Shown here piece after piece: positions 4,678 through 32,841 of a stretch of DNA of 32,924 nt. The DNA lies in IMG/VR virus record IMGVR_UViG_3300038457_000187, positions 1-32,924 of that record; one strand, 5' to 3'. The DNA is from a virus. A model generated the notes under the pieces. It saw only the letters and a program-made list of their open reading frames with translations. It made no database searches and had not been told where the DNA came from. How positions within the stretch are numbered: position 1 is the stretch's first letter; every line of letters begins with the position of its first letter. The translations under genes were made by a program, and so were the position numbers.

Positions 4678-4699
4678 TTCCTTTCGCCGTCCAGCACGG

Positions 4700-4732
4700 T
4701 GAAGAAAAGTAAATCCCCCCTGTACAGGGGAG
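4700..4732. repeat. Copy 1 of dispersed palindrome CCCCTGTACAGGGG
   Basis: A perfect 14-bp palindrome (4717-4730) is preceded by an A-rich stretch GAAGAAAAGTAAATCC. The same arrangement, A-rich GAAGAAAA then AATCCCCCCTGTACAGGGG, occurs at 17979-18011 and 23357-23388. It could be an operator, a replication iteron or a hairpin terminator. Its position 40 bases after a promoter fits an operator or attenuator. Confidence 0.7.
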
Positions 4733-12795: not shown

Positions 12796-12870
12796 TTCAG
12801 CCATCAGCCCTCAGCCATCAGCCAAACCCGCGGGCGCGGGCTGAAAGCTGACGGCTGAAAGCTGACAGCT
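12796..12870. terminator. Inverted heptamer array between convergent genes
   Basis: A run of CAGCCAT/CAGCCCT heptamers (12796-12823) faces its reverse complement (GCTGAAAGCTGA type, 12837-12870) across a GC-rich spacer. The two halves could pair into a long imperfect stem. It lies exactly between the rightward gene ending at 12741 and the leftward gene ending at 12877, the expected place for a bidirectional terminator. The terminator function is inference; there is no clear T tract. Confidence 0.5.
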
Positions 12871-12876
12871 ACTCTC

Positions 12877-17218: not shown

Positions 17219-18447
17219 CGCAGCTTTCCCTCTCTTTGCATTTGTAGTTTCAAGTCGAGCAGGCTCGGCCCGGCTTCGGTTTTGGGCGCCCGCGCCAGCT
17301 TCGCCGCGTCCCGGGCCAGGTTTATAACCATGCCGTAGGACGTGATTGAACTCATGCGGGCCTGAATGCGCTGCGTGAGGAGCGCAAAATCCGCGTCTCC
17401 CAGCGCTGCCAGAATTCCGTGTAATGCGATAGGTCCAGGGATGTCGGGTGAGAGTTTGGCTCCAAGCCATCTCAGAAGCAATTCGCGGAGTGCTTCGGTC
17501 CTTTCCATTAAAAGAGAGTCCGGTCCCGTCGTCTCACAAGGGACGGGACTGGACTCTTCTTTTTTGACATCAAAAATAGCCCCGGAAACAGGGGTGGCCT
17601 CTTCTTTATTCTTATTCCTTATATGTCGCACCTGTACAGACGGAAAACCCGCTTGTACAAGGGGAGAACCGTTCCCCTGTCCAGCGGCCATCGTCTTCCC
17701 CTTTACAGGGGAGACAAGCACGTCCGGAATCGCCGGCGGCTCGAGCGTCAACTCGAGCTGCACACCCCGGTCGTTAGAGATTACCTCCATCTGTTTCGGG
17801 GGTAGTTTCACCCCGATGGCCCGCAAGGCGCTGTACCTCTCTTCCGCGATGATTTTACGGGCCTTATCCGTCGCGGCGTTCAAAACATCCTGGGACCAAC
17901 GGTTGAAGCTGACGGCCCATTCCTCGGCGGCGACGCGCCGCGGCGGGTCGAAGTTATGAATTTGGGCCAAAACCTCAGGCGAAGAAAAAACGAATCCCCC
18001 CTGTACAGGGGAGCGATCCTCGCGCCGGCGAGACTTTACCTTGTCGGCGTTCACTCCAATGGCGCCAGCCAGACGCTTTCCGTCGGCCGCGGTCGCCCGG
18101 CGAAACAGGCCACAGGCGAGTGCTTCGGCCAAGGTGTTGGCGATGTGCTTCTCGGTGCACTTCAACTTGTCGGCCAAGCTCCGGGTGGTATGCGCGTGTC
18201 CATCGTCATCGACCGCCCAGGGGCTCGGAGGGATCCGCCCGAGGCTTTCCTGTGTTATCAGAGCCCTGAGACGGATCAACGGCGTTTCGCCGTCCCGGAA
18301 ATCCGAGTCGGTCTGGCTCGGAGGATGTGCCGTAAAGCGGCCAGTGGCGCTTCCGAGGGACCTCATTAACCTGGCGCATGCGCCGTCATTCCGACGGTCG
18401 CCGTCTTGTTCGGAAGCCATCGGCTTCCGGTTCGTCTGTGTGTTCAC
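17215..18447 (-). CDS. Phage replication-initiator-like protein (410 aa)
   Basis: I chose the GTG at 18447 because GGAGG lies ten bases upstream and it overlaps the stop of the 41-residue gene (GTGA). A disordered start precedes a winged-helix block near residues 85-125 (HTTRSLADKLKCTEKHIANT, then LAEALACGLFRRATAADGKR). A basic helical stretch (VLNAATDKARKIIAEERYSA) and a C-terminal all-alpha domain follow (ALRELLLRWLGAKL..., HGILAALGDADFALLTQRIQ). DNA-binding wHTH plus a partner-binding tail is the lambda O-type plan. The central linker contains five Pro-Val motifs encoded by GTACA-like palindromes. The function is inferred. Confidence 0.7.
   Translation of the reverse strand: MNTQTNRKPMASEQDGDRRNDGACARLMRSLGSATGRFTAHPPSQTDSDFRDGETPLIRLRALITQESLGRIPPSPWAVDDDGHAHTTRSLADKLKCTEKHIANTLAEALACGLFRRATAADGKRLAGAIGVNADKVKSRRREDRSPVQGGFVFSSPEVLAQIHNFDPPRRVAAEEWAVSFNRWSQDVLNAATDKARKIIAEERYSALRAIGVKLPPKQMEVISNDRGVQLELTLEPPAIPDVLVSPVKGKTMAAGQGNGSPLVQAGFPSVQVRHIRNKNKEEATPVSGAIFDVKKEESSPVPCETTGPDSLLMERTEALRELLLRWLGAKLSPDIPGPIALHGILAALGDADFALLTQRIQARMSSITSYGMVINLARDAAKLARAPKTEAGPSLLDLKLQMQREGKLR
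17551..18011. repeat. Iteron-like palindromes and AT-rich patch inside the replication gene (candidate origin)
   Basis: Within the replication gene lie CCCCTGTACAGGGG (17998-18011), CCCCTTTACAGGGG (17698-17711, one mismatch), CTTGTACAAGGGGAG (about 17652-17666), TCCCCTGTCC (about 17673-17682) and CCCCGGAAACAGGGG (17580-17594). AT-rich runs flank them (17557-17580, 17600-17630). Iterons plus an AT-rich region inside the initiator gene is the lambda O/ori arrangement. Origin function is inference; the repeats are seen directly. Confidence 0.45.
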
Positions 18448-21410: not shown

Positions 21411-21464
21411 TTGATTATAATTGACTTCCGGGCGGAAATGTCAATTACAATAGACTTCCGAGAC
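21411..21464 (+). promoter_or_regulatory. Tandem promoter-like repeat and operator before the sigma gene
   Basis: AATTGAC (21419-21425) and GTCAATT (21440-21446) form a 7-bp inverted repeat with an inner TTCC/GGAA stem. TTGACT and TACAAT (21446-21451) stand 19 bases apart just before the ATG at 21465. ATTATAATTGACTTCCG and AATTACAATAGACTTCCG are a degenerate 30-bp direct repeat. The arrangement suits an autoregulated promoter with a very short leader. Confidence 0.5.
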
Positions 21465-22049
21465 ATGACCGATTGTCCCTCATGGCCCGAAGTAGTGGCG
21501 CGCATCGTCGCCGACGACCCTTCCGGCATGGAAGAGTTGTACCGCCGCTGTTTCGCGCGCGGTGTGCACGTCTACCTTGGACGCCGGCTGGGTTGGCAGG
21601 CCGCCCTGGACTTTACGCATGACGCCTTCGTGGCGACCGTTGGCGCCATCCACCGCGGGGAGTTGCGCAATCCAGAGTGCCTGATGGGATACGTCCAGTC
21701 CATCGTCCGGCGCATGGTGGCCGGTGAGATCGAGGAGCGCGTGCGCCAGCGCGAGGTCCGGCAGATCAGGGAGCCCGCCGACCGGCGCGACCCGGAGCGG
21801 GTGTTACTCGCGGCCGAGAAAGACCAGGCTATCGATCGCAAGCTGGGCAAACTCAAGGGCGCGGACCTGGCCATCATCACCCGGTTCTACCAACTGGGCG
21901 ATACCGCAAAGGAAATCTGGCAAGACCTGGGCCTGACCGAAACCCAGTTCCGGCTGCGCAAGTCGCGCGCGCTCGATCGGCTCCGGCCGCGCGGGCACGT
22001 GCGACGCGTGTACCGGCCGCGCCGGCTGGAAACGGAGCGCACGGTTTGA
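21465..22049 (+). CDS. ECF-family RNA polymerase sigma factor (194 aa)
   Basis: I chose the ATG at 21465; an in-frame TTG at 21411 would add 18 residues encoded by the repeat upstream. Region 2 is visible as YLGRRLGWQAALDFTHDAFV and LMGYVQSIVRRMVAGEIEER. Region 4 is ITRFYQLGDTAKEIWQDLGL followed by TETQFRLRKSRALDRLRPRG. The linker is short, as in ECF factors. It would redirect host RNA polymerase to phage or host genes. No anti-sigma gene is adjacent. A TnpB element sits directly after its stop. Confidence 0.88.
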   Translation: MTDCPSWPEVVARIVADDPSGMEELYRRCFARGVHVYLGRRLGWQAALDFTHDAFVATVGAIHRGELRNPECLMGYVQSIVRRMVAGEIEERVRQREVRQIREPADRRDPERVLLAAEKDQAIDRKLGKLKGADLAIITRFYQLGDTAKEIWQDLGLTETQFRLRKSRALDRLRPRGHVRRVYRPRRLETERTV

Positions 22050-22050
22050 T

Positions 22051-23263
22051 GGGCAATAACATACCTAACCGACCGGTACGTTCCGGAGTACGCCCAGCCC
22101 TAGTAAATACAGGTGCTCCAGCGCACAATAGAACTAGGTGCATCGCACGTTTACAATGCGGCTGAAGCCCAACGCGGAACAGCGGATGGCGCTTACCGGC
22201 ATCCTGGTGGACTCGGCGGAAACGTACAACGCCGCCCTCCAGGAGCGCCGCGACGCATGGAAGCTGTGCCACAAGAGCATCACCTACGAGGACCAGTGCG
22301 GCGAGCTGACCCAGCTTCGGCAAGACCCGCGCTACGCCACCATCGCCGTCGATATCCAGCGGGAGCCGCTGCGCCGCGTGGACCGCGCCTTCAAGGCGTT
22401 CTTCCGCCGCTGTAAAGCTGGAGAGAAGCCGGGGTTTCCAAGGTTCCGCGCGCGCGCACGATACGATTCCTTCGCGTGGCACGAACCCAGCCTCAAGGAC
22501 GCTGCGGTTCTGGTTCCTAAGCTCGGCTGTATCCGCTTCAAGTCTCATCGGCCCGTCGAAGGCCAGCCGAAGCAGGCGACCATCAAGCGGTGCGGCGGCA
22601 AATGGGAATTGCGCGTGGTGTGCGACCTTGGCGAAGCGCCGCCAAAGGTCGCCGTCTCCAATGCGGTTGGCATCGACCTGGGTCTGACGAATTTCGCAAC
22701 CTTGAGCGACGGCGCGGTGATCGACAACCCGCATTTCACGCGGAAGCACGAAGTGCGCATCGCGGCGGCCAACCGCAAGCTGGCACTGAAACAGAAGCGG
22801 TCCAAGAATCGCATCCGCGCCCGCGAAGTATTGCGCCGCGCTCACCAGCGGGCCGGGGACGCTCGGCGGAACTTTTGCCACCATGCCTCGAAGTGGCTGG
22901 TCGAGCACTACGATCTCATTGCGTTTGAAAAGCTCAATATCCGGGGGATGGTTCGGAGCAACCTGGCGAAGTCCATCCTCGACGCGGCATGGGCCGAACT
23001 GATCTGGCAGATATCGTACAAGGCTGAAAGCGCCGGACGATGGGCCATTCCAGTGAACCCCAGAGGCACGTCGATTCGATGCTCTCAATGCGGGGCGGAC
23101 GTTCGTAAGACGCTCGCCGACCGGCAGCACCTTTGCGGCTGCGGAGCATCGCTCGACAGAGACTACAACGCCGCGCTCAACGTCCTTGCGCTTGGCAGAA
23201 GCGCTGCGGGGCTTTGCCCTTCAGGAAACGTACCGGTCGGTTAGGTATGTTATTGCCCTTGAC
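22051..23263 (+). mobile_element. IS200/IS605-group element carrying only TnpB
   Basis: The element starts right after TTGAT (22046-22050). The right flank reads TTGAC at 23259-23263. As I recall, TTGAT and TTGAC are the left target/TAM and right cleavage sites of ISDra2. No tnpA is present, so it is a TnpB-only (IS1341-type) element of about 1.2 kb. Both ends carry the same 32-bp sequence in inverted orientation (22051-22082 and 23227-23258, perfect match). Long terminal inverted repeats are not typical of this group. The element follows the sigma gene's stop, so it breaks no coding sequence that I can see. Confidence 0.8.
22138..23244 (+). CDS. tnpB: TnpB RNA-guided endonuclease (368 aa)
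   Basis: GTG start at 22138; MHRTFTMRLKPNAEQRMALT is the usual TnpB start. RuvC-I AVGIDLGLTNFA holds Asp180, RuvC-II LIAFEKLNIRG holds Glu264, and RuvC-III LDRDYNAALNVL holds Asp342. The zinc finger is CSQCGAD near 315 and CGCG near 333. All catalytic residues are intact, so it could cut DNA guided by an omega RNA made from the right end. The last codons (VPVG and stop) lie inside the terminal repeat. The expected guide would be the bases just after the right end. Confidence 0.92.
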   Translation: MHRTFTMRLKPNAEQRMALTGILVDSAETYNAALQERRDAWKLCHKSITYEDQCGELTQLRQDPRYATIAVDIQREPLRRVDRAFKAFFRRCKAGEKPGFPRFRARARYDSFAWHEPSLKDAAVLVPKLGCIRFKSHRPVEGQPKQATIKRCGGKWELRVVCDLGEAPPKVAVSNAVGIDLGLTNFATLSDGAVIDNPHFTRKHEVRIAAANRKLALKQKRSKNRIRAREVLRRAHQRAGDARRNFCHHASKWLVEHYDLIAFEKLNIRGMVRSNLAKSILDAAWAELIWQISYKAESAGRWAIPVNPRGTSIRCSQCGADVRKTLADRQHLCGCGASLDRDYNAALNVLALGRSAAGLCPSGNVPVG

Positions 23264-23287
23264 ATCGCGGGTGCCGAGCGTTACGAT
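23259..23287 (+). promoter_or_regulatory. Sigma70-type promoter at the TnpB right end
   Basis: TTGACA (23259-23264), a 17-base spacer and TACGAT (23282-23287). The TTGAC is also the proposed right-end cleavage site, so the -35 box would be made jointly by the element and the flank. It points rightward to the palindrome copy at 23375. Confidence 0.45.
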
Positions 23288-23297
23288 CTTCTCGTCT

Positions 23298-23426
23298 ATG
23301 AAGCCCACGCCCAGCGCCTCGAAATCCCCCTTCGAGCGCGGGTTTATCGGGGTAGGCGAAGAAAAAGCGAATCCCCCCTGTACAGGGGCGATTCGCCGTT
23401 TGTTCGCCCCCCAAAATAGACGCTAA
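23298..23426 (+). CDS. Possible 42-residue peptide spanning palindrome copy 3
   Basis: ATG at 23298 to TAA at 23426. The product starts MKPTPSASKSPFERGFIGVG and continues EEKANPPCTGAIRR. The middle is encoded by the palindrome element, and the same element in other frames gives similar peptide fragments at 18000, so the coding signal may only reflect the repeat. No clear ribosome-binding site. Confidence 0.2.
   Translation: MKPTPSASKSPFERGFIGVGEEKANPPCTGAIRRLFAPQNRR
23357..23397. repeat. Copy 3 of dispersed palindrome, extended hairpin
   Basis: CCCCTGTACAGGGG at 23375-23388, again after GGCGAAGAAAAAGCGAATCC. Here GCGAATC on the left and GATTCGC on the right extend the symmetry, making the longest potential hairpin of the three copies. 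A terminator or protein-binding site is possible. Confidence 0.65.
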
Positions 23427-23553
23427 TCCATTCAACCCAATACACTTAGGTCGATACATGAGGTGACTTTCGCCTAATCTTCGCCTGCCAATTGCACATA
23501 TCCACAAGCTATTCCACTCACGCAAAACGACTTACGCAAGGTTCTGCTGCTTT
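23427..23553. other. Gap after the palindrome
   Basis: About 125 bases, relatively AT-rich (CAATTGCACATATCC and similar). No gene, promoter or repeat that I can support. Confidence 0.5.
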
Positions 23554-23591
23554 AGCTGAAAGCTGAGTGCTGAAAGCTGAAAGCTGCTTTT
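23554..23591. repeat. Heptamer array (GCTGAAA/GCTGAGT type)
   Basis: AGCTGAAAGCTGAGT followed by GCTGAAAGCTGAAAGC: five heptamers ending at the stop of the leftward gene at 23590. Same family as the arrays at 12796, 24943, 25345, 26620, 30545, 32643 and 32760. Confidence 0.75.
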
Positions 23592-25344: not shown

Positions 25345-25380
25345 AGCTTTCAGCTTTCAGTTCTCGGCTTTCAGCTAAAA
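25345..25380. repeat. Heptamer array
   Basis: AGCTTTCAGCTTTCAG, TTCTCGGC and TTTCAGC units, immediately before the ATG of the next gene (25386). Part of the dispersed heptamer family. Confidence 0.7.
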
Positions 25381-25547: not shown

Positions 25548-25873
25548 TGGGCCAGTTTCACATCGGGCAGAAGATCTGGGGATCCAAAACGCGGCTCCGC
25601 CAGCCTCCCGTCAAAGGGTCGCATCCCTGCCCCGGCCTGGAACTCGGGGACCTGAAGGTGGAATGCGGGCGCGCGATCAGCGGCAACAAGTTCCTGTGCT
25701 CGGTCTGCGCCGACGCATTGCGCGCCTGGGCGATAGAGCACAAGCCCGCGCCAGAACCCAACAAGTTCCTGTGCTCGGTCTGCGCCGACGCATTGCGCGC
25801 CTGGGCGATAGAGCACAAGCCCGCGCCAGAACCCAGCAACCAGAACCCAGCACCCCTCGAGGTCGCAGTCTGA
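25547..25873 (+). CDS. Zinc-ribbon protein with a tandemly duplicated module (108 aa)
   Basis: ATG at 25547 in a TAATG overlap. The N-terminus has SHPCPGLELGDLKVECGRAI, then NKFLCSVCADALRAWAIEHK, a Cys-rich ribbon usually seen once in small phage proteins. Here the second half, a 25-residue unit, is present twice without a difference, so it carries an extra CSVC pair. The DNA copies are identical, so the duplication is recent. TGATG links it to the NusG-like gene. Confidence 0.75.
   Translation: MGQFHIGQKIWGSKTRLRQPPVKGSHPCPGLELGDLKVECGRAISGNKFLCSVCADALRAWAIEHKPAPEPNKFLCSVCADALRAWAIEHKPAPEPSNQNPAPLEVAV
25684..25835. repeat. Exact 75-bp tandem duplication
   Basis: Units at 25685-25759 and 25760-25834 are identical; identity extends one base on either side. 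In frame, it adds 25 residues (from NKFLCSVCADAL to PAPEP). A smaller repeat (CAGAACCCAGCAAC / CAGAACCCAGCACC) follows directly. Confidence 0.9.
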
Positions 25874-32642: not shown

Positions 32643-32792
32643 AGCTTTCAGCTTTCAGCTATCAGCTTTCAGCTTTTGCGCAACCGAGCGCAAGGCGCTT
32701 CCCTGGTTCCGGGAGCGGGGCTGCCGTTCGAATCGTGCGGCTCGGCGCTGTCGGGAACGGGCTGAAGGCTGATTGCTGAAAGCTGAAAGCTA
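32643..32792. terminator. Facing heptamer arrays after the terminase gene
   Basis: TTTCAGC/TATCAGC heptamers (32643-32676) face reverse-complement units (32760-32792) across about 83 bases. They lie between the rightward terminase gene and a leftward gene ending at 32842, the same convergent placement as at 12796-12870. They could pair into a large stem and act as a bidirectional terminator. No T tract supports it. Confidence 0.45.
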
Positions 32793-32841
32793 CTTTCGGT
32801 AGTGGTGTCAGGTTGTGTTGGTTAAATATTCACCGGTTAGC

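Follow-up and report, generated by a model that had tools for sequence, protein, structure and literature searches.

A phage tnpB gene between IS1595-type inverted repeats: a probable transposase-less mobile element

The stretch of DNA analysed here, called the window, is a complete viral record of 32,924 bases (IMG/VR record IMGVR_UViG_3300038457_000187) in which Pfam finds terminase and phage-integrase domains. Between positions 22051 and 23258 it carries an element that consists of an intact tnpB gene and two inverted ends. Our data indicate that these ends are those of the IS1595 family, that the record contains no match to an IS1595 or Y1 transposase, and that the element belongs to a family in which some members have 8-bp target duplications. 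The element is very probably a transposase-less mobile element, with tnpB placed between IS1595 inverted repeats, which would be moved in trans by an IS1595 DDE transposase and would combine a guide RNA from its right end with DNA cutting. Its parts are as follows.

22051..22082, plus strand: left terminal inverted repeat of the IS1595 type, GGGCAATAACATACCTAACCGACCGGTACGTT; the element proper probably starts at 22052.
22138..23244, plus strand: tnpB, 368 amino acids, GTG start (Pfam, NCBIfam, alignments).
23169..23258, plus strand: predicted 3' portion of the guide-RNA scaffold, formed by a hairpin within the 3' end of tnpB and by a terminal stem that takes its 3' arm from the inverted repeat.
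23227..23258, plus strand: right terminal inverted repeat, the perfect reverse complement of the left one; the element proper probably runs to 23257.

The original prediction, made from the letters alone, had described a TnpB element bounded by a 32-bp perfect inverted repeat, and this was borne out: 22051-22082 matches the reverse complement of 23227-23258 at 32/32 positions. Beyond 32 bp, a repeat finder could extend the match only as a poorer one (50 nucleotides at 84%), and the chance of such a repeat in two 300-nucleotide flanks is roughly estimated at 5e-15. The repeat encloses a single gene, tnpB, and its right arm overlaps the last 18 nucleotides of the open reading frame. The element proper probably spans 22052-23257, because taking GG as the start of the end makes the duplication close in autonomous relatives. 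A second copy of the element or of its arms was not found in the 32,924-base record, allowing up to 4 mismatches in 20, and an exact search of the viral contigs other than this record with the 25-nucleotide repeat core and with GGGCAATAACATACNTAAC gave no match. A repeat created by misjoining during assembly would fit a single copy on a single metagenomic contig. Other contigs and genomes, independent of this one, have homologous inverted ends, which speaks against such an artefact, and we consider it barely credible. Single-strand hairpin ends were considered as the main feature and rejected, as folding was no better than that of shuffled sequences.

The protein belongs to the TnpB group. Pfam matched it to OrfB_IS605 (E 3e-22) and Cas12f1-like_TNB (E 3e-18), and the NCBIfam model guided_TnpB scored 237 bits against a cut-off of 100. 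Asp180, Glu264 and Asp342, which we take to be the RuvC triad, are invariant across the TnpB alignments. In isolated phages and plasmids all matches were less than 60% identical, the best-ranked at 40-41%, and a nucleotide search against isolated phages gave no match. When viral contigs were scanned with an alignment, 80 loci were retained, of which the best was 68% identical; repeating the scan with closer relatives yielded 68 loci. In Acidobacteriota, 4/396 genomes had a TnpB match at E 1e-60 or better, with a top identity of 42%. One single-protein scan of prokaryote genomes gave 16 pattern matches, none of them a relative, and another single-protein scan gave one weak match. The close TnpB clade was thus seen only in viral contigs, the genome search being the shallower of the two.

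The identity of the ends comes from elements that carry their own transposase. A window-type end, GGCAATAAYATACYTRAC, bounds IS1595-family transposons. It was found in 21 stretches of viral contigs, of which 8 hold an IS1595 DDE transposase, and at six of the 21 loci it forms an end pair with an 8/8 duplication, the second end showing 1-3 mismatches. Genomes were queried for the window's own end with GGGCAATAACATACNTAAC, two mismatches being allowed; the Acidobacteriota set was centred on L138 (Acidobacteriaceae) and the Pseudomonadota set on L109 (Gammaproteobacteria), whose record titles give the phylum names used here. In Pseudomonadota, 26/398 genomes gave 30 matches versus 14 for the reversed-pattern control; several of the Acidobacteriota matches share a variant, GGGCAATAATATACTTGAC. 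Ten Acidobacteriota stretches were read, and six have the window-type end on both sides with at most 3 mismatches per end. All six paired elements match an IS1595 DDE transposase by tblastn (one split over two frames), PF12762/PF12760 was found in two, the NCBIfam IS1595 model scored 178 bits in one, and five of the six have a perfect 8-bp duplication when the boundary is set at GG. Since paired ends, 8-bp duplications and DDE genes occur on the same end, the window end is an IS1595 end.

A related end, GGGAMTTATATACWTRACTNCC, gave the same picture on a larger scale. It was fetched from 87 stretches in prokaryote genomes and at least 120 in viral contigs, and all 207 fetched loci entered the pair count. 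The matches listed formed 103 distinct pairs spaced by less than 5 kb, 76 of them with identical 8-bp flanks. By tblastn, an IS1595-type transposase was found in 55 of the 103 listed pairs, TnpB in 4 and both in none. PF12762 was present in 12/12 genomes chosen from the 87 loci versus 1/14 control genomes, and one element was scanned directly. The GGGAMTTATATACWTRACTNCC group is an IS1595 family that includes many derivatives lacking a transposase. In the window's whole record, neither an IS1595 DDE transposase (PF12762) nor a Y1 TnpA (PF01797) was matched. The suggestion of the original prediction that the element uses another transposase in trans, one needing inverted ends, is supported by ends of the IS1595 DDE type in a record in which no IS1595 or Y1 gene was found.

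TnpB relatives of 51-67% identity occupy 14 distinct viral-contig sites, on diverged IS1595-type ends; the commonest end is near GGGAMTTATATACWTRACTCCC. Relatives that lack an inverted repeat, which according to the original prediction would count against it, do occur, chiefly in the more remote TnpBs. Inverted matches with a score of at least 12 were found around 13 of the 25 listed TnpBs of 50% identity or more (two of the 13 being near-duplicates) and around 5/59 below 50%; the cut-off and the tally are the analyst's own, and TnpBs below 37% identity were dropped. TnpB matches shorter than 250 residues and duplicates by sequence or left flank were removed before any counts, as were relatives below 44% identity in the end survey of closer relatives and loci too near a contig end in the duplication test.

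Four TnpB relatives (L020, L316, L331 and L336) have 8/8 duplications, and L330 has a 7/8 duplication at its inner right end. In a control that paired ends across loci, 0/678 reached 13 of 20 identity together with a 7 of 8 duplication. At 11 of 20 identity chance pairing already yields 13/678, so that the case for L316, with 11 of 20, depends on the 8/8 duplication and the short distances. Two TnpBs on Bosea plasmids, L006 (1109-2480) and L013, which are 39-40% identical, have GG ends and 8/8 duplications; in L006 the insertion seems to split a gene annotated as nucleoside monophosphate kinase (922-1131), which stops a little way inside the left end.

Flanks were read by eye for 15 relatives, including L343 with a different end type, and for the window; the count was then redone on 14 by a single score rule. 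In copies without a duplication the left flank still resembles that of a duplication copy, whereas the right flank does not. One possible cause of the missing duplications is that the right flank was exchanged, in which case TnpB would have acquired a new guide. Another reading is that the window element is a stranded, immobile TnpB, which would have arrived on IS1595 ends, had its right flank exchanged and been kept by the phage as a nuclease against other phages or plasmids. This is compatible with the IS1595-end origin proposed here. It would account for the absence of an 8/8 duplication in the window and in 11/15 relatives (one of these with 7 of 8), for L306, L305 and L313, which keep a right end and have no left end within 1,500 bases, and for the two tandem right ends of L330. 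Both ends of the window element, however, are intact and perfectly matched, as fits a recently movable element, and we regard stranding as possible but doubtful. In L330 (3115-3290) a different flank follows each of the two right ends, as if one TnpB had two guides, and L328 appears similar to L330, judged from the sequence after its right end (after 3623).

The bases TTGAT (22046-22050) and TTGAC (23259-23263) do flank the repeat, as the original prediction stated. It had likened them to ISDra2-type sites, at which such elements insert 3' of TTGAT and have a right end closing with TTGAC. This likeness did not hold among the relatives, where TTGAT adjoins the left end at 0/14 sites. The element could still be an ordinary ISDra2-like member of IS200/IS605 (IS1341-type), served by a Y1 TnpA in trans and with ends homogenised by chance; the empty site would then read TTGAT directly followed by ATCGCGGG. 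The two motifs abutting the repeat, a TnpB within the broad IS605 OrfB families and a window copy without an 8-bp duplication all agree with this. They have to be set against the same inverted end bounding IS1595 DDE transposons with 8-bp duplications, the lack of TTGAT in the relatives and the absence of a Y1 match from the record, which make such an element improbable. We do not class the window element as ISDra2-type because of its long inverted repeats and the 0/14 count. Homogenisation, also raised by the original prediction, may still explain the perfect 32/32 match in the window, but most TnpB relatives have an imperfect inverted repeat; L034 has 25/25 on a different end type. A Tn3-type reading, with TTGAT/TTGAC as a 5-bp duplication, was given up when IS1595 elements with 8-bp duplications were found to have the same ends.

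The TnpB insertion sites share a motif that was first spotted by inspecting the flanks and then counted. GA occupies positions -9/-8 before the left end at 14/14 TnpB insertion sites, defined by one end-score rule, compared with 22 of the 150 end orientations of TnpB-less elements that have the same ends and 8/8 duplications (P about 6e-11); in viral TnpB-less elements alone the count is 16/98. The next most fixed dinucleotide reaches 10/14. The matrix behind the end score derives from elements with 8/8 duplications, including one TnpB element, and does not contain GA; left ends scoring below 20 were dropped from the GA count, and so were 2 of the 99 TnpB-less elements, whose flanks were incomplete. 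The duplication begins at position -8, and -9 lies just outside it. The right end is directly followed by A in 13/13 TnpB relatives versus 25/75 TnpB-less elements; the total is 13 because the score did not pick up the right end of L316, and it is weak for those of L309 and L322. Among the relatives with a right end only (L306, L305 and L313), one has A at this position and the others C and T.

Read from the sequences, it is as if the target-adjacent motif of the TnpB relatives had been shifted to the outer edge of the duplication. Before insertion, the site would then have a motif ending in GA directly ahead of the guide match; the A on the right would, in our reading, be the last scaffold base. 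A fuller proposal is that this phage TnpB lineage was rebuilt for a target-duplicating IS1595 DDE transposase: a GA-ending motif would stand at the outer duplication edge, the first duplicated A would serve as the last scaffold base, the right-end site of the transposase would form the terminal RNA stem, and the guide would be reprogrammed whenever the right flank was exchanged with no fresh duplication. We give this proposal an even chance.

The guide-RNA scaffold was predicted in common on 15 right ends, as a hairpin within the tnpB 3' end and a terminal stem in the inverted repeat. The alignment comprised the window and 14 of 17 right ends, with L309, L322 and L334 left out. In it 90% of the lettered cells pair, and sliding the partners cuts pairing to 22-62%. 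Cells changed on both sides numbered 19, compared with 7.9 in shuffles. A middle stem that was added pairs poorly (73% and 33%). Both the making of a guide RNA at the right end and guided cutting by TnpB are predictions.

The sequence of events that we propose for the transposase-less element is as follows. The host or another element would supply an IS1595 DDE transposase in trans, which would recognise both inverted ends and insert the element, normally duplicating 8 bp. The guide RNA of TnpB would be made from the right end, where the transposase binding site would double as the last RNA stem, and the DNA directly outside the right end would act as the guide. Element-free copies of the site would then be cut by TnpB, and this benefit would favour retention or spread of the element among phages. 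The segments outside the two ends are these.

22039..22050, plus strand: left flank, GCACGGTTTGAT; it shares no 8-bp duplication with the right flank, and GA is missing from -9/-8.
23259..23278, plus strand: right flank, the predicted guide segment, starting TTGACATC; it is not an 8-bp copy of the left flank, and its role is putative.

Several results weigh against this mobile-element reading and its RNA. The window copy agrees with the 8-bp target duplication at 0 or 2 of 8 positions, depending on which of two boundary rules is used. Its bases at -9/-8 are C,G (or G,G with the GG boundary), so that this copy, a single one, does not fit the GA rule of its relatives. Perfect duplications are rarer in TnpB elements (4/15) than in TnpB-less ones (75/99; P 3e-4). 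TnpB was absent from the 21 viral stretches with window-end matches and from the 40 fetched genome stretches, and the window holds so far the only TnpB seen on exactly its end variant. The query GGGCAATAACATACNTAAC matched 20/396 Acidobacteriota genomes with 23 matches, compared with 22 for the reversed-pattern control by the analyst's count, and none of 15 fetched Pseudomonadota stretches contained a DDE match. Pattern-match counts alone prove nothing; the IS1595 link therefore rests on the paired ends, the duplications and the DDE genes. For the RNA, pairs changed on both sides numbered 6 versus 4.4 in shuffles, 68 of 500 shuffles being as high, and further pair types were as high in 183/500. 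The scaffold evidence is supportive only, because the hairpin lies in coding sequence. Without a transposase and a duplication, the window element is classed as a derivative working on IS1595 ends and not as an IS1595 insertion sequence.

Ten proteins from transposase-less elements with IS1595-type ends in viral contigs were scanned with Pfam: four matched N6_N4_Mtase, two matched Dam (one just below the Pfam cut-off), and the other four had no match. DNA-modification genes may be carried among phages on IS1595 ends. The six putative DNA methyltransferase genes are at these positions.

L190:1711-2442, L213:7650-8387 and L246:7034-7714: DNA methyltransferase cargo on IS1595-type ends, viral contigs (Pfam).
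L254:6349-7488, L257:12292-12765 and L284:3978-4460: DNA methyltransferase cargo on IS1595-type ends, viral contigs (Pfam).

In an Acidobacteriota IS1595 element with window-type ends (L409:1896-3260), a gene with a RelA_SpoT domain lies beside the transposase.

The gene upstream of the element and several repeats in the window were also recorded.

21411..22049, plus strand: upstream phage gene, weakly sigma-70-like (below the cut-off), with its stop codon one base from the left repeat.

Relatives of this sigma-like gene were sought for an empty site, and none of the 12 pattern matches was a relative. On the minus strand, 23262-23330 contains by eye a truncated-looking reading frame that ends at the right repeat and would fit an exchanged right flank. 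A decayed 7-bp duplication, TTTGATG/CTTGACA, with 4 identities and 3 transitions by eye, was rejected as indistinguishable from chance. Rfam gave two sub-threshold matches across the element, both on a palindrome outside it. Three copies of a repeat that are 74-100% identical and end in the palindrome CCCCTGTACAGGGG lie at 4696-4730, 17977-18011 and 23354-23388, the last about 95 bases to the right of the element. Units of GCTGAAAGCTGA and AGCTTTCAGC form dispersed repeats at 12831-12876, 23546-23591, 25345-25376, 32643-32674, 32752-32797 and elsewhere, and 25684-25833 is a 75-bp exact tandem duplication. As a clue to the host, the terminase had matches in 5/386 Acidobacteriota and 7/388 Pseudomonadota genomes (E 1e-30), which does not settle the host.

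TnpB is regarded as the ancestor of Cas12 and is usually tied to IS605 or IS607 transposases. Elements of IS200/IS605 normally have subterminal hairpins instead of long terminal inverted repeats, and Y1 TnpA is not known from IS1341-type members. The window element shares its TnpB family and a predicted right-end guide RNA with IS200/IS605 elements such as ISDra2, which carry tnpA and tnpB, but differs from ISDra2 in its long inverted repeats of the DDE-transposon type, its lack of a Y1 gene and a TTGAT that is not conserved in relatives. With the IS1595 family, which has ISXO2-like DDE transposases and 8-bp duplications, it shares homologous inverted ends; unlike that family, it has no transposase gene and no duplication, and its cargo is an RNA-guided nuclease. 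A member of IS1595 is reported to have an 8-bp A/T-rich duplication (PMC12561309), and duplications of this kind occur in some of the TnpB relatives. A title and abstract search of the literature, with partial coverage, found no report of a prokaryotic TnpB on IS1595 ends; novelty is not established.

A close precedent is the IS607 TnpB of ISXfa1, in which a fixed right-flanking base was shown to be taken into the guide-RNA scaffold (PMC10711439). The first right-flank base is fixed in our TnpB relatives too, which suggests that their boundary was adapted to the transposase in a similar way. IS607 uses another recombinase and matching dinucleotides, whereas a DDE transposase and an 8-bp duplication would be involved here. 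The shifted GA motif is a simple and testable rule for such adaptation of a nuclease. Fanzors, the eukaryotic relatives of TnpB, are known on DDE transposons in eukaryotes and their viruses (PMC3627910, PMC10711439). The two cases are alike, with a TnpB-like nuclease as cargo of transposons that have inverted repeats and target duplications; the difference is that here a prokaryotic, phage-borne TnpB lies on IS1595 ends with no transposase in cis. If our reading is true, RNA-guided nucleases of bacteria and phages can switch from one transposon partner to another, a change that Fanzors made in eukaryotes.
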